Below, in pieces: positions 1,341-34,173 of a stretch of DNA of 35,299 nt. Position 1 is the first letter of the stretch, and every line of letters begins with the position of its first letter. Under the pieces are notes generated by a model. It made no database searches, had not been told where the DNA came from, and saw nothing but the letters and a program-made list of their open reading frames with translations. The stretch is from a virus, in the IMG/VR virus record IMGVR_UViG_3300040801_006078, positions 1-35,299 of that record, one strand, 5' to 3'. Both the position numbers and the translations under genes were made by a program.

Positions 1341-1386
1341 TGGTAGCGGAGGAGGGACTCGAACCCCCGACACGCGGATTATGATT
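1341..1386 (-). other. attL core: 3' half of tRNA-Met(CAT)
   Basis: On the minus strand these 46 bases read as the 3' half of an elongator tRNA-Met: anticodon CAT at 1383-1381, the 3' strand of the anticodon stem TCCGC, a variable loop, GGGGGTTCGAGTCCC as T-arm, CTCCGC of the acceptor stem and an encoded CCA. The matching 5' half (GGCGGAG acceptor strand and D-arm) is absent; the sequence diverges right before the anticodon loop. This is the remnant left when a phage tyrosine integrase recombines in an anticodon loop, so it marks attL. The intact tRNA-Met should be restored at attR, beyond the right edge. Confidence 0.85.
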
Positions 1387-4010: not shown

Positions 4011-4306
4011 CGCGTCCTCTCTTTCATTCCGGTCGCCAGCAGCAACGCCAACGCCGGCCAAAACACAGGCTGCGCACCGCCGATCATGAACGTCGCGTCC
4101 TCAACACAGTCGCCCGGATCGGCATCGCGGAACACCAGTTGGCTCGTCTCCCAAGCGACCACCACCACGGCCCCGCCCCACAACGGCAACACCAACGCCA
4201 GCGCCGCGCCGACGCACAGGTGGCCAAGCTGGTTGAGGGCGTGCCCGACCGGGTCGCCCCTGAACGCCATCGGCCGCGACCAGAGCGTCAGCAGATACCG
4301 GATCAC
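4007..4306 (-). CDS. Phage membrane protein of unknown function
   Basis: A 99-aa protein starting with GTG in a GTGA overlap. Hydrophobic helices are seen around residues 28-52 (HLCVGAALALVLPLWGGAVV) and 78-93 (PVFWPALALLLATGM). The middle holds an acidic loop (FRDADPGDCVEDATFMIGG). It lies between the tail-fibre-associated gene and the holin in the lysis block. It could be a holin/antiholin partner or an immunity or exclusion factor; family not recognised. Confidence 0.55.
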   Translation of the reverse strand: MIRYLLTLWSRPMAFRGDPVGHALNQLGHLCVGAALALVLPLWGGAVVVVAWETSQLVFRDADPGDCVEDATFMIGGAQPVFWPALALLLATGMKERTR

Positions 4307-4758
4307 AGCAGCGCCGCCTGACGGAACAGGTCGTCGACCTGTTCGTCCGACCAGGCCAGCGCCGCCTGGGCGTCGGTGACGAATGGGTCGGAGCGCGGGA
4401 TGTAGTTCGCCAGCGCCCAGTCCTCTTGCGCTGCGTCACTCAGTGTGCCGATCCAGGGCTTGACGTGCGTTTCCCAAATGCCGGCCTGCCGCAGCGCCCG
4501 GACAAGCTGGATTTTGGAGACCTGATCGGGCACCGGCTCCGGCGCCGGCGGCGGCGGCTCGGGGACCGGCTCGACGATCCACTCCGTGCCGTCCCAGCGT
4601 GCCCGTTCGTGGTCGGCCACGGCCGGCGCGGGGGCGTCGATAAAATCGGCGGCCGGCTCATGCGCCAGGGTGCCGATCAGGCCGGCGATAAACGCCGCAT
4701 GGCGTGGCGTGCCGGCGATGGCATCCAGGTCCGCGCGGCTGTTGATGATGGTGCTCAT
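4303..4758 (-). CDS. Putative tail-fibre-associated or chaperone protein
   Basis: A 151-aa soluble protein. Its middle has a proline/glutamate linker (EPVPEPPPPAPEPVP) followed by a helical C-terminal part (VSKIQLVRALRQAG, then WETHVKPWIGTLSDAAQEDW). The sequence ARWDGTEWIVEP resembles the motif in tail-fibre assembly proteins that sits before a linker, and the C-terminal module resembles short domains at the ends of phage tail-fibre accessory proteins. It overlaps the RT stop by 4 bp, so it is co-translated with the DGR. A role in folding or attaching the variable fibre is inferred, not shown. Confidence 0.5.
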   Translation of the reverse strand: MSTIINSRADLDAIAGTPRHAAFIAGLIGTLAHEPAADFIDAPAPAVADHERARWDGTEWIVEPVPEPPPPAPEPVPDQVSKIQLVRALRQAGIWETHVKPWIGTLSDAAQEDWALANYIPRSDPFVTDAQAALAWSDEQVDDLFRQAALL

Positions 4759-5732
4759 CGCTCGATCTCCAATGCGGTCAGCAGGTGGTGGGCGTCAGCC
4801 CATTGCGCGTGCCCGCGCCAACTCGCGACAAAGCGGGCCAGGGCCTCGTCGTCGCCGCGCGCCCGCAACGCCCGGATCGCGCGCTTAGCGCCGGTCACGC
4901 TCTGCCGGCGCAACAGCTTGTGGGTGGGCCAGATCCGATAGCCGAGAAAATTGACGCCCCGCGTCACCGGCTGGACCGACCATTTCGACAGCCGCAGCCC
5001 CAGGGCCTCGCCGACGAACGCCACGATCCGCTCTTTCAGCGCCCGCAGCTCCGCCGCCGAATGGCCGAAAACCACCGTGTCGTCCATGTAACGGACAAAG
5101 TCGCGCCAGCCCTCAGCGATCAGCCAGCGGTCAAAGGCGGTGGCGTAGACGTTGGCATAAAGCTGGCTGGTCAGGCTGCCGATGGGGATGCCGCGCCCCT
5201 CCGGCGGCGTGATTTCCTCCATCAAGCGCAGGGTGGCGCGGCACGCCACCTTCTTCCGCAACATGGCGTGCAACCGCGCGCGGTCGATGCTGTAGAAGTA
5301 GCCCGCAAAGTCCACCTTCAGCACATGGACCGGGCCAGCGCGCCCCAGGTGGCGCATCAGGGCTTGCGTCCGCACCGCCCCCGCGTGCGTGCCCCGGCCG
5401 GGCCGACAGGCATAGGACTGATGGGCAAAGCCCTGCTCGAATATCGGCTCGATCACGTTGCACAGCGCGTGCTGGGCCAGCCGGTCGCGGAACGGCAGCG
5501 CCATGATCCGCCTGGGCTTCGGCTCGCGAATGGTGAATTCGCGATAGTCGCCGCGCTGGTATCGCCCGGCCGCCATGTCATCGGCCAGCCGCGCCAGGTT
5601 CGCCTCCGCGTGCTCCTTGAACTCCAGATAGCCGGGCGTCCGCCGCTTGCCCTTGGCCGTCTGGCGATAGGCCCGGCGCATGTTGTCGGGCGCCACGATC
5701 AGCGGCATCAGGTTTCGGTGTTTGGTTCCCAT
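4755..5732 (-). CDS. DGR reverse transcriptase
   Basis: A 325-aa RT of the DGR clade, which copies the TR RNA into cDNA with random errors opposite adenines. Motifs in order: PKPRRIMALPFRDRLAQHAL (about 71-90), catalytic VLKVDFAGYF with D141, the DGR-type IPIGSLTSQ (182-190, where group II intron RTs have a QG-containing motif), catalytic YMDD (215-218), then LRLSKWSV and NFLGYRIWP of the thumb side. There are no maturase, endonuclease or RNase H domains, and the length is normal for DGR RTs. The ATG at 5732 gives MGTKHRNL, like the typical DGR RT N-terminus; the frame is open further upstream, but that region is the TR. It is the last DGR gene, 147 bp after the TR. Confidence 0.95.
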   Translation of the reverse strand: MGTKHRNLMPLIVAPDNMRRAYRQTAKGKRRTPGYLEFKEHAEANLARLADDMAAGRYQRGDYREFTIREPKPRRIMALPFRDRLAQHALCNVIEPIFEQGFAHQSYACRPGRGTHAGAVRTQALMRHLGRAGPVHVLKVDFAGYFYSIDRARLHAMLRKKVACRATLRLMEEITPPEGRGIPIGSLTSQLYANVYATAFDRWLIAEGWRDFVRYMDDTVVFGHSAAELRALKERIVAFVGEALGLRLSKWSVQPVTRGVNFLGYRIWPTHKLLRRQSVTGAKRAIRALRARGDDEALARFVASWRGHAQWADAHHLLTALEIER

Positions 5733-5879
5733 GACAATGCCGGCGGCGGGTTTCGATGTTGCGCTACTCCCCGCCGGCCCGGACCTCTCAATGTATTCGC
5801 CGAAGCAGGATGACGGGGCTGACCACCTGGATTGGAGGCCGGCGCCGGGGGCCGTAACCCACCGGCAGCGGAAATGGGC

Positions 5880-5995
5880 GGTCACTGCGGCCCCGCGCGC
5901 CGATGTTGTTGTTGGAGTTGCTCGGCGCGTTGTTCCAATTCGCGCAACGCGACCCGGAGTACGAGCCATTGTCCCAGTTGCCGCCGAATCGGGGC
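5880..5995 (-). repeat. DGR template repeat (TR)
   Basis: A 116-bp copy of the VR lying between avd and the RT gene. Read on the coding strand in the VR frame it has nine AAY asparagine codons. It has 25 adenines, and the VR differs from it at 11 positions, all adenines in the TR. The 3' part (about 5880-5902) is identical to the VR and very GC-rich, fitting the initiation-of-mutagenic-homing (IMH) segment. It is not translated as part of the RT and serves as the RNA template. Confidence 0.95.
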
Positions 5996-6012
5996 GCATG
6001 ACGTATCCCCCG

Positions 6013-6420
6013 TCACCCTTTGCGCGACTTGGTCTTGATCCAGGCGCCGGTCATCCCGCCCACCTCCGCCAGATGGATCGAGCCCACCCGGTGTTGGTTC
6101 TGCGAGATCAACCGGCGGCCCGGATCGGCCAGGAAGCGCAACCAGAACCGCAGGGTCGCCAGCCCGGCATCGGCGGCGTACAGCCGCGACACCTGACCGC
6201 TTTTGCCTGCGGTAACGAATAGCCCCACCTGCGCGAACATGGCCCGCAAGAACTCGTCGCGGGCGATGCCGTGTTTTCTGGGTATGTTTTGCGCGATGGG
6301 ATACATGTAGTTGATAAATCCCTCGTATTTCTCAATGATCGCCAAGTGGCGATAGCCGCCCAACTCGTCGCGAACCACGCCATCGTCCGCGCGGGGGCGG
6401 CTTTCGCCGCCCCTAGACAT
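6013..6420 (-). CDS. avd: DGR accessory variability determinant (Avd)
   Basis: A 135-aa, basic, all-helical protein matching the Avd four-helix bundle: IIEKYEGFINYMYPIAQNIPR (helix 1), DEFLRAMFAQVGLFVTAG (helix 2), LATLRFWLRFLADPGRRLIS (helix 3) and VGSIHLAEVGGMTGAWIKT (helix 4, with the family's GxMxGxWIK ending). Avd forms a pentamer that binds the RT and the TR RNA and is essential for cDNA synthesis and homing in BPP-1. The ATG at 6420 overlaps the end of the target gene by 8 bp, so it is translationally coupled. The frame continues upstream through the VR in a non-target frame, which I take to be non-coding. The TR starts 17 bp after its stop. Confidence 0.9.
   Translation of the reverse strand: MSRGGESRPRADDGVVRDELGGYRHLAIIEKYEGFINYMYPIAQNIPRKHGIARDEFLRAMFAQVGLFVTAGKSGQVSRLYAADAGLATLRFWLRFLADPGRRLISQNQHRVGSIHLAEVGGMTGAWIKTKSRKG
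6394..6413 (-). promoter_or_regulatory. DGR target-site hairpin with GAAA tetraloop
   Basis: On the coding strand GGGGCGGC-GAAA-GCCGCCCC forms a perfect 8-bp stem with a GNRA tetraloop, starting at the last base of the target stop codon and 17 bp after the VR end. BPP-1 and other phage DGRs have a GC-rich stem with a 4-nt GAAA-type loop just downstream of the IMH, needed for efficient homing. This element matches in size, loop and place. Confidence 0.88.
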
Positions 6421-7891
6421 GGCACACGTGGTCACTGCGGCCCCGCGCGCCGATGCTGCTGCTGGAGTCGCTCGGCGCGTGGCTCCAAACCGCGCAACGC
6501 GACCCGGAGTACGAGCCACCGTCCCAGTAGCCGCCGAATCGGGGCTTATTGGGCTCTAGGTAATAGCTGCCGCGCCCTTCCGTGCTCGCCGACCATGACG
6601 AGCCAGAGCCGCTGCTGCCGTCGCCCAGCCCCCACTCCCACATGCAGCCGGTCGCCATATCCATGCCGCAGTCGCTTTCTCGCGCCGCGATGTATTGCGT
6701 GGTCACCGGATCCGACCCGATGGACGACGCCTCGGCGGATCCGTACCGCGCGACGCAGCTTTCGCCTTGCGACAACAACTGCTTGCCTTGCGCTACCATA
6801 ACCTCATTGGCCTCGTACCAAGTAAAGCTGCCGTAGTTGGTCGTTCCATCACCACCAAACTTTGTTGGTATCTTCGGCGGACTGGCGTCATCGGCAATGG
6901 TCGCGCCATATTTACTTGTGCCGTTGGTGTCCGGGTCCGTGTTGCACGGGTAACAGTCTACCCAGGACGTTTCGTTCAAGTTCAGCACCATGCCGCGCGG
7001 GTCAGTGGCGGCCGGCCGAAACTTCAGGTCCCAGAAGCTGCGCGCCTTGATCTTTGGTTCGCCGTCATAATGAAACCCGCCGATCTTCCGCCAGCTACCA
7101 GCGCCGGGAGCGGCAGTAAAGCTGGCGTCGGCCCGAATACTGCCGTCGTCTTTTACCCAGATGGCGTAGTCCGTGCCGGCGGTGAGCGTCGGCATCGTGA
7201 TCGCCGTCGCCGACGAAAACTCCACGATGGTTCCGGCCACCTCGACTTTCGTCCCGGCCTTGATTTCCGCCGTGCCGGCGCCTGTCTTGGTAAATGCGAC
7301 CGCCTCCCAGTCAGCCTTGTGAAACAGGCCGTCCACCGCCGCGTCCGGCGTCAGCGCAGCGACTGCCTGCCCCACCCGCTCTGGCGTCCAGGCGTAGGGT
7401 GTGTCAGAGGTGCCTGCCTCGGCCTCGGCCTGGGGGACGACAGTGGCGTTGGAGAGGTCGGCATTGGCGGCCCGGCGCCCCGGAACCACCTCCACCCAGT
7501 CGGTCCCCTGCCGCAGCAGCAGGAGCGTCACGCCAGTCACGAGGTCCAGATTGGCTCCGTCCCGCAGGACAATTTGACCCAGCCCCCCGGCCGCGTGCTG
7601 GACCGTCACAACCCGCGCCGGGTCCGCCCCCCAAAGCGCCAACAGGGACCCCTCGTTCAGGTTGGCTTGGTCGATGTGCGCCAGCGTATCCGTGGGCGCG
7701 GCGGCCTCGGTATCCACGCTGTGGGCGCCGCCGGTGGGGGTGATCGCGTTTCCGTTGACGGTCAGTTCCGTCGGGGCACCGCTGCCCAGCCGCTCCGCAA
7801 GGAACCCAAGCAGCGGCGCCCACACTCGGGCGATACCCTCGCTACCGCTCATAGATGGGCTAAAAACAGACAAGTCCGGCAAGCTGCTCAT
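6413..7891 (-). CDS. DGR target protein: variable tail-fibre / tropism determinant (C-type-lectin/FGE-like C-terminus)
   Basis: A 492-aa protein predicted to form the receptor-binding tip of the tail. The N-terminal ~180 residues look like a phage fibre attachment region (NLNEGSLLALWG, then a beta-rich segment); the middle is beta-rich. The C-terminal ~200 residues resemble the formylglycine-generating-enzyme/CLec fold used by Mtd and other DGR targets: SWVDCYPC, GCMWEWGLGDGS, and the variable FGGYWDGGSYSGSRC...IGARGRSD ending. Ligand contacts come from the variable positions. Start: ATG at 7891, sharing one base with the stop of the J-like gene (GTG at 7894 is an alternative). Only four codons follow the VR. 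Confidence 0.9.
   Translation of the reverse strand: MSSLPDLSVFSPSMSGSEGIARVWAPLLGFLAERLGSGAPTELTVNGNAITPTGGAHSVDTEAAAPTDTLAHIDQANLNEGSLLALWGADPARVVTVQHAAGGLGQIVLRDGANLDLVTGVTLLLLRQGTDWVEVVPGRRAANADLSNATVVPQAEAEAGTSDTPYAWTPERVGQAVAALTPDAAVDGLFHKADWEAVAFTKTGAGTAEIKAGTKVEVAGTIVEFSSATAITMPTLTAGTDYAIWVKDDGSIRADASFTAAPGAGSWRKIGGFHYDGEPKIKARSFWDLKFRPAATDPRGMVLNLNETSWVDCYPCNTDPDTNGTSKYGATIADDASPPKIPTKFGGDGTTNYGSFTWYEANEVMVAQGKQLLSQGESCVARYGSAEASSIGSDPVTTQYIAARESDCGMDMATGCMWEWGLGDGSSGSGSSWSASTEGRGSYYLEPNKPRFGGYWDGGSYSGSRCAVWSHAPSDSSSSIGARGRSDHVCHV
6430..6545 (-). repeat. DGR variable repeat (VR)
   Basis: A 116-bp segment encoding residues ~449-488 of the target protein, almost at its C-terminus. It matches the TR (5880-5995) at 105 of 116 positions. 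The 11 differences alter all nine TR asparagine codons: N to Y, G, V, S, H, D, S, S, S in order. Bases outside AAY codons are unchanged. The 3' ~25 bp (IMH) are identical to the TR. Confidence 0.95.
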
Positions 7892-10800
7892 CACACATAT
7901 CCCTGTATTCGGGCGTCTACACTGGCCCCGGTTCCAGCCCCGGCGGTATTCAGCGCCTCCACCAGCGGGCCGATGGTCAATTTGTCTTTCACGCGGGCTG
8001 TGACGGCCGCGCCGTCGTCATCCTGTAGCGTCAGGTGGACCGCCTTGATGGCCGCCCATGGCGTCGCCGTCGGCAGGCGCGTGCCACCGGGCGCGATCAC
8101 TACATCGGCCAGCACTTCCTCGCTGTCGGGCACGTCCACGATAAGGGTCAGCGCCTCAATCCGGGTTCGGGCCGACCCTGGCGGGCACGACAGGCGAATA
8201 GTGTAGGCACTGCGCGTGATCGGCATCCGCGCCGGGAGCGGACGCCAAGTCGGCGCGCTCTCCGGCCACCAAATGTCTTCGGTGTCGCCCGGCCACCACG
8301 CATCGGCCGTGTCGCCTGGCCACACGACAGCGGGCCAAACCTCCGCAATCTCCAGCGTGTACTCGCCGGGCGGCGCGGCCGCGACAGGTGCGGGCTCAGG
8401 CCCCCACGTATCGCCCACGTCTCCAGGCCACCACTCGTCACCGCTGTCACCCGGCCAGGACGCGCTGGGCCAACGGTTCGCGGTGTCCAGCGTGCCGTCC
8501 GGAGCATCGACCGTCACTGCCACCACCAGGTCGCCGGCACGCTCAGGCGTCCACAGTGCCTCATACATCAGCGGCGCGGTGTTAGACCCCCACCACACGC
8601 CATCCGTATCGCCCGGCCACCACGCATCGGCCGTGTCGCCCGGCCACCACGCATCCGTGATGGTCGCTGCGAGGTGGCCGTCCTCGATGGCGCCGCCGCT
8701 GATGGTGCCCGGCCACGTCGGATGCAGGGCCGTCTCCTCCACCACATTCGCAAGCACCGGATCGCCGAATCCATAGGTCAGCACAGCCGGCTCGGCCGAC
8801 TCATTGCCGACGATGTCCACGGCCGTGACCATGATGCTGACGGTTCCGGACAAGCCGCCGATTCGGAAAGGCGGCGCTGAGACCAGGCCGCTATGCAGCA
8901 GCGCGGCGGCACCAAGCGCACGGGTCACGCCGGTGGCCGCGCGAATGCGGAACCCAGCCAAATCGGCGGGGGCGTTCGGGTACGGCCACGACAGCCAGTC
9001 GCCCTCCAGGTACAGTCCCGGCACGTCGGGCGGCAGCGTCGAAAACCCCACAATGGTGTGGCCGGTGACCGTGACCCATGGCGACACATCCCCGGTACGG
9101 GATCGCGCCCGCAGCCTCACGTCATAGGCCGCGCGTTCCTCGACCTCGCTCCAGACCAGGACCCCCACGCGGTCGGGCTGCCGCAGTGTGCCCATCCAAT
9201 CGCCGCCGTCCTGGCGTCGGATTTGCCCCTCCACCTCAGTGGTCAGCTCCCCCCAGCCCCTGGCTATGCGATATGCCACACGCAGCGCGACCAGCAGGTG
9301 ACCCGTGCGCCGGCGGATCAGTGCGGTTTCGTCGCTCCGGATGGACTCGATGACGGGCGCGGGCGGCACGCCCCATTGTACCGGGGCCGTGATCTGGCTC
9401 TGCCACGGCGGAATCGGCTCGTCCTCGGCCGTGAACACGCCTGGTCCATAATCCATCAGCGTCACGCGCGCCGACAGATCCGGTCCCGGGTCAATCGACC
9501 GGACCAGCAAATCCGCATGCGTGTGCCCGGCCGGGCCAAACGACACCAGATCGCCCTCGGTCGGACCCAGGGCTTCGGGGACCGCCACGGCAAAGGTCAG
9601 CGTCGAGACCAGCCCCGACCCCCCGACCAGGGACCGCGACAGCGTCGTGCTATCTGCCAGCGTGATCAGCACGGCATACGACGCGTCAGCAGCCATGGGC
9701 ACGGCGGTATCGAGCCGCACCCCCGTGGCGACCGGGTCGCCGGTCTCAGGGTCAGCGCCCCCCAACACCTCCAGCACCCGGCCAGACGCCAGGCCGAACA
9801 TGGGCGTCGAGTGGTTGACCGCCACCAGATCCCCGCGCTGGCACATCAGGTGCCGATAGGACGTGGTCAGGACGTACTCACCCAGGCGCAGCTTCATCTC
9901 CGCCAGGCGACGCCGACCGATACGCTGGATTTCCGCCGGGTCGTCGACGCCGAACATCTCGATGTCGCGGATTTCCGTGGCATTGGCGGCGCTATATCCG
10001 TCCGCGTACACGATCCGCTCGTCTTGATCCCAGCCCACATAGCGGTTGCGGAACGACACGCGCAGGCCATGGACCGGCTCTATATAGTTGTGCTTGCCGC
10101 TGAACTTCGCGCTGTTCCGCTCGGTGAAGACCTGAGCGTAAGAGTCGCGCGGCTCGTCCAGCCCCACCGTCAGCTGGCCGTCGGCGTCATGCCAATAGGC
10201 GCGCCCGGCCAGAGCGACATCGCCAAGCGCCTCCGACAGCGCGGTTTGGAAATCGTATACGGCGGCGAACGACCACCCGCGCGCGATGCACCGGTCCGCC
10301 CAGATTTCCAGCGCGGCCCAGTCGATTTCGCCGTCGTCCATCGGGTGCCGCAAATGCGGGCCGGTCGCCGCGTGCGCGAACAGGGCAGCGGGGCTCGAAG
10401 TGGCCCGCGTCACCCAGGCGGAGCCGTTCCAGTCCCGGCAAACCGTCTGCTGGATCGCGGACACCGTGTCCACGATGCCGTCCAGCTGGTCGCTGGCCTT
10501 GATTCTCAGAGCTGTCGCCGTCACCCACGGAATCGTGATGGGGCGATCCGCTGCGATGGACCGCACAGAGGTCCAGTAGGGCTCCCACGACACGTACTGA
10601 CTGGTGCTGCGCCCGTCCTCCAGTCGGACCCGCACGTCATACGCGCCCTCTGCCAGGCCGCCGATGCGAAAGCCCCGGCGCAGCGTGTCCGCAGTGTTGG
10701 CGCGGATCGTCTTCGGGTACCCCGGCGCATTGCTCCATCCGCCACCGGTGGCCCTGCGATACTGGACACCGACGCGGACGCTGTACGCTCGCGTGCTACC

Positions 10801-11772
10801 TGTCTGTTCGTCAATCTCTCGCAGGCCAGCGGGAAACAGGAAGTCGCCCTGAATTTCCACCGTGCGCGGGTCGGTTGTGCGGTGGTGCCATGCCCCCTCC
10901 CTGGTCAGGGCCACCCGCATGGATTCCTCGGTCACCGCCCGAGGATACAAGCGGAAATATGGCACGTCGGCTGACCCCACGTGGGTCTCGACCTCGACGC
11001 CGTCGTACCGCCCGATTGGCGTGTCGCCGATGCGAATGTCGCTGATATCGTAGGCGCCCATCCCCCACAGCAGCAAAATGCGCAAATACTGGTCGTTGCC
11101 GACGACCTCGGTATAGGTCGGCGCTGCCAACGGCGGCCTGTGGCGGATGCGGCCCAGGACCAGCGGCACGCCGTCCCAGGGCCGAAGTTGGTTTCGAGCC
11201 CCGGTCAGGCTGGGGCTGCGCCGGCCAGCGGCCAGCGCCGCCGGAGACTGCCCCCCGGATGACCGGTTCGCGCCCGCAGCGGACAGGTTCAGCTTCGGCT
11301 TCTGCTGGGGAATCAGCATCTTGCCGAGGAATGAAATCGCGCCGGACGCAAGCGCACCCAACACGCCGGCCAGCGTGGCGCCAAGGATGGCGGAGGTCGC
11401 CGCTGTCACGGCCGCGCCAGCGACCGACGCCACGACGCCGATGGCCAGGGCGGCGATAGGCGCGCCGACGTAGGCCCGCACCACCACGCGGCACCCCGCT
11501 TTGGGCCGCGCCCCGCCCCATCGGTCGCGCGGGACGATCCACACCTGCCGATCCCGCTCAATCGCCACCGAGACATGGCGCCGCAACTCGGCGCGGGGCT
11601 GGACACGCTCCACCACCTCCGACAGGGACAGGCCGGCCGGCAGCCACAGCCGCACTCGCTCCGAGCGCAGCGGGTGCGGGCGCGCAATGACCTCGACCTG
11701 GGCCTCGCCCGGCGGCAGCACCTCCACCGCATCCGGGCGCACGGCGTGCGCGACCGTCGTCACCCCTGCCAT
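7891..11772 (-). CDS. Tail tip / host-specificity protein J homologue
   Basis: A 1293-aa protein, the usual size for lambda J-like tail-tip proteins, which close the tail tube end and carry fibres. Features: an N-terminal beta domain, a hydrophobic alanine/glycine-rich segment (about residues 100-155), the conserved core GVPLVLGRIRHRP...LRILLLWGMGAYDISDIRIGDTPI typical of J/TipJ, a long central region with WVTATALRIK and FN3-like modules (AYDVRLRARSRTGDVSPW), and an unusual Trp-rich repeat zone (about 1037-1172) built on WWPGDT. The ATG at 11772 overlaps the NlpC gene by 13 bp. The DGR target follows immediately, consistent with it docking on this protein. Confidence 0.88.
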   Translation of the reverse strand: MAGVTTVAHAVRPDAVEVLPPGEAQVEVIARPHPLRSERVRLWLPAGLSLSEVVERVQPRAELRRHVSVAIERDRQVWIVPRDRWGGARPKAGCRVVVRAYVGAPIAALAIGVVASVAGAAVTAATSAILGATLAGVLGALASGAISFLGKMLIPQQKPKLNLSAAGANRSSGGQSPAALAAGRRSPSLTGARNQLRPWDGVPLVLGRIRHRPPLAAPTYTEVVGNDQYLRILLLWGMGAYDISDIRIGDTPIGRYDGVEVETHVGSADVPYFRLYPRAVTEESMRVALTREGAWHHRTTDPRTVEIQGDFLFPAGLREIDEQTGSTRAYSVRVGVQYRRATGGGWSNAPGYPKTIRANTADTLRRGFRIGGLAEGAYDVRVRLEDGRSTSQYVSWEPYWTSVRSIAADRPITIPWVTATALRIKASDQLDGIVDTVSAIQQTVCRDWNGSAWVTRATSSPAALFAHAATGPHLRHPMDDGEIDWAALEIWADRCIARGWSFAAVYDFQTALSEALGDVALAGRAYWHDADGQLTVGLDEPRDSYAQVFTERNSAKFSGKHNYIEPVHGLRVSFRNRYVGWDQDERIVYADGYSAANATEIRDIEMFGVDDPAEIQRIGRRRLAEMKLRLGEYVLTTSYRHLMCQRGDLVAVNHSTPMFGLASGRVLEVLGGADPETGDPVATGVRLDTAVPMAADASYAVLITLADSTTLSRSLVGGSGLVSTLTFAVAVPEALGPTEGDLVSFGPAGHTHADLLVRSIDPGPDLSARVTLMDYGPGVFTAEDEPIPPWQSQITAPVQWGVPPAPVIESIRSDETALIRRRTGHLLVALRVAYRIARGWGELTTEVEGQIRRQDGGDWMGTLRQPDRVGVLVWSEVEERAAYDVRLRARSRTGDVSPWVTVTGHTIVGFSTLPPDVPGLYLEGDWLSWPYPNAPADLAGFRIRAATGVTRALGAAALLHSGLVSAPPFRIGGLSGTVSIMVTAVDIVGNESAEPAVLTYGFGDPVLANVVEETALHPTWPGTISGGAIEDGHLAATITDAWWPGDTADAWWPGDTDGVWWGSNTAPLMYEALWTPERAGDLVVAVTVDAPDGTLDTANRWPSASWPGDSGDEWWPGDVGDTWGPEPAPVAAAPPGEYTLEIAEVWPAVVWPGDTADAWWPGDTEDIWWPESAPTWRPLPARMPITRSAYTIRLSCPPGSARTRIEALTLIVDVPDSEEVLADVVIAPGGTRLPTATPWAAIKAVHLTLQDDDGAAVTARVKDKLTIGPLVEALNTAGAGTGASVDARIQGYV
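8256..8665 (-). repeat. Internal WPGDT-repeat zone of the J-like gene
   Basis: Three blocks encode runs of WWPGDT-type units, each unit preceded by AD, GD or VV and ending in WW or WG. The first and third blocks share an identical 32-bp stretch (8285-8316 and 8609-8640), so the blocks arose by recent duplication. Between them are beta-strand-like spacers of about 45-65 residues. Confidence 0.7.
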
Positions 11773-30946: not shown

Positions 30947-31203
30947 GGGTGGTGCTCCCGCCAATGCACCCCACACCACCAGACGCCGAGATCCCGCGCC
31001 GCGCGCGTCTCCAGCGCCCGGCGCAGGGTGACGCCCTCGCCCCGCACCGCCGGGCGATCACACCCCGGCACGGCGCAGCGCGTGATCAGCCGCCCGCCCT
31101 GGAGCGAGGCCGACGACCGCAGCCCGGGCGGCGCCGGCCGCTCGGGCGGTGGCGCGGGCGGCGCCTCCAGCGGCGCCAGCAGATCGAGGGCGTGCGTGCT
31201 CAT
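30943..31203 (-). CDS. Small zinc-finger-like phage protein
   Basis: An 86-aa protein of unknown family. A proline/alanine-rich N-terminus precedes a likely metal-binding unit: C-A-V-P-G-C, then WWCGVHWREHHP with a third cysteine and several histidines. The gene overlaps both the methyltransferase stop and the primase start by 4 bp, so it is a coupled member of the early operon. A DNA-binding or adaptor role is a guess. Confidence 0.6.
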   Translation of the reverse strand: MSTHALDLLAPLEAPPAPPPERPAPPGLRSSASLQGGRLITRCAVPGCDRPAVRGEGVTLRRALETRAARDLGVWWCGVHWREHHP

Positions 31204-31844
31204 GGCCCCCCCACCCCGACCGCTTTGCGCCGGCCGGCGTCAGCACTATGGTCGCCGGCCGGCGCGAACCGGTCGGTCTGGTTGCCCCACACGTCCCAGC
31301 CCGGCCGCGTGGTCCGCGCGAACAACTCCAGACGCGGGCCGGCGCAAAACCGCTCGATCCGGCCCGCTGCCTCATCCGGCTTGCGGCTGTGCTCACGCAC
31401 CGGCGCGATCAGGGTTTCCGGCACGCCGGCATCCAGCCGAGCCGGGCGGCCGCGCCGGCCCAGCAGGCAGGGCTCGGAATTGGCGCGCGTGGTATAGCCC
31501 AGGCCGATATGCAGATCGGCCGGCGCCAGGAACAGGCGCGGGTCGGACCCCCGGCGCAGCTTGACCCACAGCAGGCCGAGGCCGGAATAGTCAAACCCCC
31601 ACGCGGACAGCGTCGCCAGGCCCTCGCCGATCAGCGGCCAGGTGCACCACAGCCACAGCCAGCAGTCGTCCGCCGCCACCTCCGCCACGGGCAGCGCCTG
31701 GATCGCGGCCAGGTCCATGCAGCCGTAGTGCGCTTGGGGCGCGCGACCCTCGCCGGCGGCCGAGCGCACGCGAAACGTCCACGGCGGATCGGCGACGATG
31801 CAGCCATAGCGCCCGGTCGGCCAGTCGGGGGGACGCGCCGCCAT
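31200..31844 (-). CDS. MT-A70 family adenine methyltransferase
   Basis: A 214-aa putative N6-adenine methyltransferase. It has the catalytic DPPW (residues 19-22, in IVADPPWTF), then WLWLWCTWPLIGEGLATLSAWGFDY, LLWVKL, HIGLGYTTRANSEPCLLG and KPDEAAGRIERFCAGPRLELFARTTRPGWDVWGNQ, the ordered motifs of phage MT-A70 enzymes. It would methylate phage DNA, and is often thought to protect it from host restriction; no partner nuclease is nearby. ATG at 31844 shares a base with the upstream stop; longer starts are less likely. Confidence 0.92.
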   Translation of the reverse strand: MAARPPDWPTGRYGCIVADPPWTFRVRSAAGEGRAPQAHYGCMDLAAIQALPVAEVAADDCWLWLWCTWPLIGEGLATLSAWGFDYSGLGLLWVKLRRGSDPRLFLAPADLHIGLGYTTRANSEPCLLGRRGRPARLDAGVPETLIAPVREHSRKPDEAAGRIERFCAGPRLELFARTTRPGWDVWGNQTDRFAPAGDHSADAGRRKAVGVGGP

Positions 31845-32278
31845 CACACACCCCTCCGCGCGTGCGTCCACCCCACCAGCCTCCGCCACCAGGGGAGCCG
31901 GGGCGACGCTTTTGCCCGCCGCCCCGTCCCGCGACCCGGAGTGGGATCCCCGGGCCGCCCCTCAGCCGCCGGGCTGGTCCCGGAACGGCCCCCGGCCGGG
32001 TCTGGCGTAGCCGCGCCCCCGGCCAAGCTCCTCTGTTCCTCCCCTCCCTGTCGTCTCGCGCGTTCCGTCGCCCACCCCATGATCTGCCCGACCACGCGCT
32101 TGGCGACACTCCGCCGCAGCCGGCGGTCGGCACCGCGCGTCACCCAGTCAGGATGTGCCGTGATCGCGTCGGCCACGGCCCCATCCACCAGCCGCCAGAG
32201 CTGACGGCGGGCGCGGTCGCCGTGGATCTGCGGCGTGCGCCGGGATCGGCTGTGGGGCCTGGATCGCGCGCCGGTCAT
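31844..32278 (-). CDS. Hypothetical early protein, basic
   Basis: A 144-aa protein. The N-terminal half is strongly basic and helical (RARRQLWRLVDGAVADAITAHPDWVTRGADRRLRRSVAKRVVGQIMGW), ending in a Gly/Pro/Arg-rich tail. The first half could bind nucleic acid. No family recognised. ATGA overlap with the preceding gene at 32275-32278 fixes the start. Confidence 0.5.
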   Translation of the reverse strand: MTGARSRPHSRSRRTPQIHGDRARRQLWRLVDGAVADAITAHPDWVTRGADRRLRRSVAKRVVGQIMGWATERARRQGGEEQRSLAGGAATPDPAGGRSGTSPAAEGRPGDPTPGRGTGRRAKASPRLPWWRRLVGWTHARRGV

Positions 32279-32505: not shown

Positions 32506-33014
32506 GACGACGCCTCCCCGCGCCCCTCGCACAGTGCGGCGATCAGGCCATAGCCGCCGATGTCCAGCGCGTCGTCCGGATCGTCCAGCCGCAGCTGCTG
32601 CCGGTGCGCCGCGCGGGCGATCTTGAGCCCGGCCATCATGTAGGCCACGTCCTGCGCCTCCAGCGCGTCGCCGGCGCCCATCAGACCGGCGGCGTGTAGA
32701 TAGACCGTCCACACCGCCGCGATACTGGCGGACATCACCACCGCATCGCCCCGGCCGGCGCCGCGCGCGGCCAGCGTCTCGCGCAGCACGTCGACCCATC
32801 CGTCGAGGGCGTCGGGCGCCACCGCCGACTCCCCCCCCCGGTCGGGGGGAGACTGGGAGGGGGGCGCCTGAGGCGCCGCGAGCCACCCCAACGCCGCCAG
32901 GCGATCCAGCAGGTCCCCGACCTGCGCCCTGGACAGACGCGGCCCATCCGGCCCCAGCTCCATCAGCGCGCCCATGACATCCTCGCGCCCCGGCCAATGC
33001 CGCCACCCGCTCAT
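32502..33014 (-). CDS. DUF6378-like phage protein
   Basis: A 170-aa protein. The C-terminal ~80 residues carry the pattern of DUF6378-type early phage proteins: IAAVWTVYL followed by DVAYMMAGLKIARAAH and DDALDIGGYGLIA (in relatives, W-x-x-Y-L, then M-x-x-LKIAR and D-x-x-GY). The N-terminal half has a helix-turn-helix-like stretch (SRAQVGDLLDRLAALGWL) and a low-complexity linker. Function unknown; relatives sit in early operons of alphaproteobacterial and other phages. ATG overlaps the gcrA-like stop (ATGA). Confidence 0.6.
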   Translation of the reverse strand: MSGWRHWPGREDVMGALMELGPDGPRLSRAQVGDLLDRLAALGWLAAPQAPPSQSPPDRGGESAVAPDALDGWVDVLRETLAARGAGRGDAVVMSASIAAVWTVYLHAAGLMGAGDALEAQDVAYMMAGLKIARAAHRQQLRLDDPDDALDIGGYGLIAALCEGRGEASS

Positions 33015-33937
33015 TCCGCCGCCTCCAGGTTTTTGGTTTTGATCGCCGCAGCGCCCCTGCGGGACGCGCGGCTCCGGGCCTTCAGCCCGCCCGGCCGGTC
33101 GGCCGGGCCGACCGGCTGCGCCGGTCGGATGCGTCGTACCCCCTCCGGGCGTCCGCCCGGCGACCCCTCTGTCGCGGCGTCACCATCCCTCTCGGCTGGC
33201 GGCAGACCCCGATACGCCCGCGCGTGGTGCGCCGCGCAGTAGCTCGACCCCGCCCGCCGGGGCGCGCCGCAGGCGCCCTCGCCCGGCTCACCCTCGATCC
33301 AGCGACAGGTGTCGGCGTCCAGCGCATCGGCGCTGCGGTGATGTCGCCGCCCCGCATCGACCCAGCCGTCGAACACCGCACCGACAGCCAGCACATCCGT
33401 TCGCGCGGCCCCCTCGAGCGCCCCCGTGCCGGCCCCCATGCCGGCTTCCGCCTCCCCCTCACAGGGAGAGGGTCGGGGCGCTGCATACGCCGGCCCGCCC
33501 CCGGCCGGGATCGACGCACCCACCCCCTCACTCCGCCGGGGGCGGACAAACAGTCCCAGCCGGTGCCGCATGCGCGCGACCGTATCGGCCGACCGGCCGA
33601 TGTGGTCCCCGATGGCACGATCATCCAGGCCGGCGGCGACTCCGCGCCGCACGCCCTCCAGATCCCGCTCGGACCAGCGCGGCCGGGAGCCGGTCTTCTT
33701 GCGCGGGGCGTTCGGGGCCGTCGGCTTCAGGGAGGGGGGCTTCAGGGACGGCGCCTCCAGGGGCGGGGGGGCCGGTGTGGCCGGTGACGCCTCTGTCGCG
33801 GTCGGCGCGCGGCCCAGCGCCGCCAGCCGCCTGCGCGTGGCTTGCAGCGACAGCCCGCAGCGCGCGGCGATCTCGACCACCCCGTGGCCGCGCCGCGCCA
33901 ACAGGCGCAGCCGGCGCGCGGACACGGTCTCCGTCAT
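33011..33937 (-). CDS. GcrA-like transcriptional regulator
   Basis: A 308-aa protein. Two HTH-like segments occur: SARRLRLLARRGHGVVEIAARCGLSLQATRRRLAALG (6-42) and SERDLEGVRRGVAAGLDDRAIGDHIGRSADTVARMRHRLGL (about 85-125). A Cys/His module near residue 230 (CRWIEGEPGEGACGAPRRAG, YCAAHHARAYRG) closely matches the C-terminal module of GcrA. Caulobacter GcrA is a sigma70 cofactor controlling genes with CcrM-methylated promoters. Here the last ~45 codons come from structured repeat A, suggesting an extended or replaced C-terminus. ATG at 33937, SD GAGG. Confidence 0.75.
   Translation of the reverse strand: MTETVSARRLRLLARRGHGVVEIAARCGLSLQATRRRLAALGRAPTATEASPATPAPPPLEAPSLKPPSLKPTAPNAPRKKTGSRPRWSERDLEGVRRGVAAGLDDRAIGDHIGRSADTVARMRHRLGLFVRPRRSEGVGASIPAGGGPAYAAPRPSPCEGEAEAGMGAGTGALEGAARTDVLAVGAVFDGWVDAGRRHHRSADALDADTCRWIEGEPGEGACGAPRRAGSSYCAAHHARAYRGLPPAERDGDAATEGSPGGRPEGVRRIRPAQPVGPADRPGGLKARSRASRRGAAAIKTKNLEAAE
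33031..33163. repeat. Five-hairpin repeat, copy A (inside the gcrA-like 3' end)
   Basis: A ~130-bp element in the same orientation as copy B at 33953-34080. It contains the hairpins CCGACCGGC-TGC-GCCGGTCGG and CCGGGCG-TC-CGCCCGG in perfect form, plus weaker versions of the other three. It is translated as the C-terminal tail of the gcrA-like protein. Confidence 0.75.
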
Positions 33938-34173
33938 GGCGACCTCGTGGGGTGTTTTTGTTTGATCGCCCCAGGCGCTTCGCGCCGGGGCTCCGGCCCT
34001 TCGGGCCGCCGGGCCACTTGGCCCGGCCGACCGGCTACGCCGGTCGGATACGTCGCGTTCCCTCCGGGCGCCCGCCCGGAAGACACACGCGCCAGCCACC
34101 GACTCACGCGGCCCCACCAACACACCGGGATGGGAGAGCAAAACGCCAGATACTCGTCCTTGGCGCGGCCCAT
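33934..34173 (-). CDS. Small protein with repeat-derived C-terminus
   Basis: A 79-aa frame. The unique part is MGRAKDEYLAFCSPIPVCWW and the short amphipathic stretch GRVSRWLARV; the other ~45 residues are encoded by structured repeat B. It starts 3 bp after the CII-like stop with GAGGG upstream and ends in a 4-bp overlap with the gcrA-like ATG, so it is well placed for a real gene. No function recognised. The repeat is read here in a different frame from copy A in the next gene. Confidence 0.5.
   Translation of the reverse strand: MGRAKDEYLAFCSPIPVCWWGRVSRWLARVSSGRAPGGNATYPTGVAGRPGQVARRPEGPEPRREAPGAIKQKHPTRSP
33953..34080. repeat. Five-hairpin repeat, copy B
   Basis: Five consecutive perfect hairpins: GGCGC/GCGCC (33974-33986), CGGCCC/GGGCCG (33994-34008), GGGCC/GGCCC (34011-34024), CCGACCGGC/GCCGGTCGG (34027-34047, 9 bp), TCCGGGCG/CGCCCGGA (34063-34080), with loops of 2-4 nt. 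Direct copy of the element at 33031-33163, about 920 bp apart. Probably a REP/BIME-like mobile or structural repeat. Confidence 0.75.

Follow-up and report, generated by a model that had tools for sequence, protein, structure and literature searches.

The 35,299-base stretch of DNA analysed here (the window; a complete IMG/VR record with 70.9% G+C) almost certainly carries a complete and apparently intact diversity-generating retroelement (DGR) of the BPP-1 type, borne by a temperate siphovirus. DGRs are well known from Bordetella phage BPP-1, a podovirus, and use an error-prone reverse transcriptase (RT) to rewrite the tip of a receptor-binding tail protein. In a global survey, these elements fall into six clades, three of which are almost wholly viral (PMC8144416).

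Organization of the cassette

All elements of the DGR lie on the minus strand (Table 1), where the Mtd-like target with its variable repeat (VR), avd, the template repeat (TR), the TR-RNA spacer and the RT follow one another in the order of BPP-1, and the frames of RT, Avd and target are all open. A sequence-only reading of the same DNA had placed a complete DGR with target, avd, TR and RT in the BPP-1 arrangement here, and its arrangement and coordinates both proved right. It had also described coupled reading frames. This stands for J and target (TGATG, 7893-7889, minus strand) and for RT and the next gene (ATGA overlap, 4758-4755, minus strand), whereas target and avd (ATGTCTAG, 6420-6413) are coupled or not according to where avd begins; its start is uncertain, and translation could begin at an internal GTG. 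The small gene coupled to the RT stop likely belongs to the phage tail region, outside the DGR proper.

We assign the cassette to the BPP-1 type because of its A-only TR/VR mismatches, DGR-clade RT, Avd, spacer, IMH-like element, hairpin and Mtd-like target; every sequence feature that could be tested supports this assignment. In a blastn search of 50,697 phage records, the cassette was matched by BPP-1 and its close kin only.

Table 1 Coordinates of the DGR elements and neighbouring features in the window.
Feature	Position	Strand	Evidence or remark
3' half of tRNA, CAT anticodon, ending CCA	1341-1386	-	starts at the anticodon loop; between host deacetylase gene and prophage
Small gene coupled to RT stop	4303..4758	-	phrog_6034, unknown function
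DGR reverse transcriptase	4755..5732	-	8ub7, E 3e-115; phrog_1423, E 1e-116; tree
TR-RNA spacer (Rfam Phage_DGR RNA)	5739..5869	-	RF03022; aligned to BPP-1 spacer
Template repeat (TR), 25 adenines	5880..5995	-	gap-free repeat of VR
avd, accessory variability determinant	6013..6420	-	NF033474; Pfam bAvd; 4dwl, E 3e-36
DNA hairpin/cruciform, 8-bp GC stem, GAAA loop	6394..6413	-	GGGGCGGC GAAA GCCGCCCC
Mtd-like receptor-binding tail protein (DGR target), 493 residues	6413..7894	-	1yu3 Mtd; Pfam mtd_2nd; phrog_11262
IMH-like element, 21 nt, directly before target stop codon	6416..6436	-	AGTGACCACGTGTGCCATGTC
Variable repeat (VR), 3' end of target gene	6430..6545	-	116-nt repeat of TR
GC-only tract, 15 nt, counterpart of BPP-1 (GC)14	6437..6451	-	GGCGCGCGGGGCCGC, exact search; BPP-1 alignment
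J-type central tail protein, immediately upstream of target	7891..11772	-	phrog_31; NF040662

Repeats and cis elements

TR and VR align without gaps over 116 nt at an offset of 550, with 11 mismatches, all of which fall on TR adenines (8 A>G, 2 A>T, 1 A>C). The probability of such an A-only pattern arising by chance is 5.7e-9 (hypergeometric). When the whole window was scanned at all offsets under a rule by which only A may differ, no second TR/VR pair or VR was found. We therefore regard the DGR observation as real, given a 116-nt pair with mismatches at A only that is the sole one in the window. At the protein level, 15 target codons have a TR adenine in the first or second position (456, 458, 459, 462, 469, 471, 472, 475, 476, 478-481, 487 and 488), of which nine currently differ from the TR; in the alignment with Mtd, these codons fall opposite its variable end.

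The spacer between TR and RT was matched by the Rfam model for Phage_DGR RNA with 88.5 bits (gathering threshold 50) over the full model (1-127/127). Published work describes hairpins with GRNA loops behind the VR and found the BPP-1 hairpin necessary for efficient homing (PMC3240598). In agreement with that description, the window holds a GC tract, an IMH-like element and a GRNA-loop hairpin behind the VR. The hairpin, which the sequence-only reading did not mention, starts at the last base of the target stop codon. The IMH region reads CACGTG, and most relatives carry CACCTG at the matching place.

Since 14 of the 25 TR adenines are unchanged in the VR, the element could have been active once and have decayed since, with the VR now fixed and frozen under selection for one receptor. 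We consider this unlikely: an old frozen TR/VR pair should show non-A mismatches, and none have accumulated, while the RT, Avd and target frames are intact and the RT motifs, hairpin and spacer are all present.

Target protein and tail context

Residues 187-490 of the target (of 493) match the Mtd crystal structure 1yu3 (E 3.2e-74, phmmer) and probably correspond to Mtd domains 2 and 3 (C-type lectin). Pfam mtd_2nd scored above its cut-off and the tail protein family phrog_11262 matched with E 4e-104. Residues 1-186 are unlike the first domain of Mtd. Judged by these alignments, the target is a mosaic in which Mtd domains 2 and 3 are preceded by an N-terminal module of its own. No counterpart of this module occurred on any of 47 other DGR targets compared, nor was it found in a DGR-free relative (G399, see below); phage records yielded one weak match (38.8% identity over 45% of the query, E 1e-4). 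It is tempting, if rather improbable, to imagine that the 186-residue module docks the Mtd head onto the siphovirus J tip and that the overlap of avd start and hairpin links translation to target-site use.

The J-type tail operon that had been proposed to adjoin the cassette is indeed there, with the J gene directly upstream of the target (phrog_31, central tail fiber J, E 1e-96; NF040662, TipJ, above cut-off). The structural genes further include NlpC/P60, tape measure, lambda-type portal, a capsid/protease fusion and gpA terminase. A scan of IMG/VR with the J protein gave no relative confirmed by that method; J kin are present in known phages and in G399, the nearest phage by terminase (59%), whose J protein is 35% identical over residues 399-1293. 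G399 contains neither DGR nor Mtd, and a different protein follows its J gene. The DGR and Mtd head thus behave as an exchangeable module.

The target would act in adsorption. A different task, for example as a decoration or surface-binding protein, might be suspected from an N-terminal module that has no informative relative, yet this is very unlikely given the target's kinship to Mtd, its position directly behind the tail-tip gene in a tail operon, and the different protein that DGR-free G399 carries at that place.

Mtd-like proteins without an annotated RT close by are also encoded by Synechococcus and Marinomonas phages. A further Mtd match, in the tail fibre gene of a phage T7 record (LR745707), comes from a chimaera of T7 gp17 with BPP-1 Mtd that was made in the laboratory and deposited; it is no natural locus.

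Reverse transcriptase and Avd

The RT carries the motifs IPIGSLTSQ and YMDD, as the sequence-only reading had noted, and its best match among solved structures is the BPP-1 RT (bRT, 8ub7) with 388 bits, against 69 bits for the next class. We set its start at 5732, where the bRT-like sequence begins, and dropped the first ATG of the ORF at 5999, inside the TR. A maximum-likelihood tree of BPP-1 and its relatives, with five RTs of group II introns as the outside class, grouped the window RT with that of locus L002 as sisters (100/98) within the set containing BPP-1, and split off the group II intron RTs with 100/100 support. Placement in the DGR clade, on which the earlier interpretation depended, is thus borne out. 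Avd scored 107 bits against NCBIfam NF033474 (DivGenRetAVD; cut-off 80) and also matches Pfam bAvd and the Bbp7/Avd structure.

That TR and VR are a simple gene-end duplication beside an RT of another class has a negligible probability, for although the RVT_1 domain is common to all classes and TIGR04416 matches below its cut-off, every TR/VR mismatch lies at an adenine, Avd and the Phage_DGR RNA are present, and a group II intron or defence RT is ruled out by the scores and the tree.

Related loci and activity of the family

RT searches yielded 110 related loci: 80 of the 279 confirmed in IMG/VR, plus 30 in GTDB genomes. Under a pairing rule that admits mismatches at TR adenines only, a TR/VR pair was found in 85 of these, some of them near-copies of each other; since the rule itself imposes the A-only pattern, the number of pairs is the evidence, not their purity. 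The remaining 25 gave no pair under the strict rule, several owing to cut contigs. Most of the loci with a pair share the layout of the window, with the VR mostly 520-610 nt upstream of the TR. Behind the VR, 50 of 87 pairs (BPP-1 and the window included) have a perfectly paired stem of 6 bp or more, mostly with GRNA-type loops, and many other pairs have an imperfect stem. Six loci (L005, L012, L039, L055, L085 and L095) have two VRs per TR, the second about 0.85-1 kb further upstream, so that one TR serves two targets.

The comparison of identical TRs with variable VRs, by which activity was to be judged, gave a positive outcome on a sister element: L018, L019 and L026 have identical TRs, and any two of their VRs differ at either 6 or 13 sites, each of which is a TR adenine. 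As the VRs differ while the TRs are identical, elements of this family are active. No relative in IMG/VR shares the TR core of the window, and the scan of GTDB genomes returned no RT above 57% identity to the window RT. From the state of its sequence, we infer that the window copy may be active or have been so recently.

Host and prophage state

A temperate siphovirus, as previously proposed, fits the J protein, tape measure, lambda-type portal and gpA terminase together with a probable attachment site in the 3' half of a tRNA. Functions of the lysogeny type comprise CII-like and HTH regulators in addition to this site. The tRNA half is probably attL; ARAGORN detected no whole tRNA in the window, and Rfam gave only a sub-threshold tmRNA match at this position. 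No integrase was found among the scanned ORFs; it may lie beyond the right-hand limit of the record.

The proposed alphaproteobacterial host is consistent with a GcrA-type regulator and with matches of the flanking host gene. This polysaccharide deacetylase gene (1-1182) has its best matches at about 50% identity in a comparison with 385 genomes, restricted to the class of one alphaproteobacterial MAG (G008). The early region, on the minus strand, encodes an MT-A70 methyltransferase (31200-31889) and a GcrA-domain regulator of 376 aa (33011-34141), and the host's cell-cycle control by methylation may be a target of the phage.

Comparison with known systems

The DGR of BPP-1 (mtd-avd-TR-brt; AY029185) and that of the window share their gene order, a nearly equal TR/VR spacing (556 and 550 nt, respectively), the spacer RNA, GC tract, IMH region, GAAA-loop hairpin, Mtd domains 2 and 3, Avd and bRT; where the two can be matched, their DNA is about 65% identical. 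Unlike BPP-1, the window has a J-type siphovirus tail, a probable alphaproteobacterial host, a 186-residue module in place of Mtd's own first domain and an avd start that possibly lies upstream of the hairpin.

The nearest RT (74% identity) is that of the tree sister L002 in IMG/VR record 3300029199_000279 (G402), whose Mtd-like target is 58% identical to that of the window but has another N-terminal module, other neighbours and a TR of different sequence. The G402 record, the virus of this nearest DGR relative, also holds a second, different RT (locus L230, 528-2018, IMGVR_UViG_3300029199_000279) with GLPIGNLSSQ and YVDD in a 496 aa ORF.

As in the window, a J-family protein stands directly upstream of the Mtd-like DGR target in L018/L019 and L046, with RTs 53-54% identical to the window RT and different N-terminal modules. 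In the kappa-prophage of Vibrio cholerae HE-09, reported in 2012, RT, atd, TR, VR and part of mtd were transferred together and became fused to the tail fibre gene of another phage (PMC3521204); this prophage is of another phage lineage and is likened to the window by its published description, not by sequence. The J and Mtd DGR layout occurs in other loci as well, and an Mtd fusion by module exchange was published in 2012.

Proposed mechanism and significance

In BPP-1, whose DGR has been reconstituted in E. coli, the spacer primes cDNA synthesis on the TR-RNA by RT and Avd; errors arise at adenines, and the product then replaces the VR (PMC12875486). By analogy, one transcript would carry the TR of the window along with the spacer and the end of avd. 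RT with Avd would then copy the TR, with priming from the spacer and random bases inserted opposite adenines. The cDNA would take the place of the VR in the 3' part of the Mtd-like gene, with the GC tract, IMH-like element and hairpin directing it there. The tail tip would thereby gain a changed surface for receptor binding, altered in up to 15 codons, while the TR stays constant.

The window adds one well-formed example to the large family of BPP-1-type DGRs and leaves the view of their mechanism unchanged. It again shows the DGR passing, together with its Mtd head, as one module between tail types that are not related, and the related elements with identical TRs provide natural evidence of activity in the context of a J-type tail.
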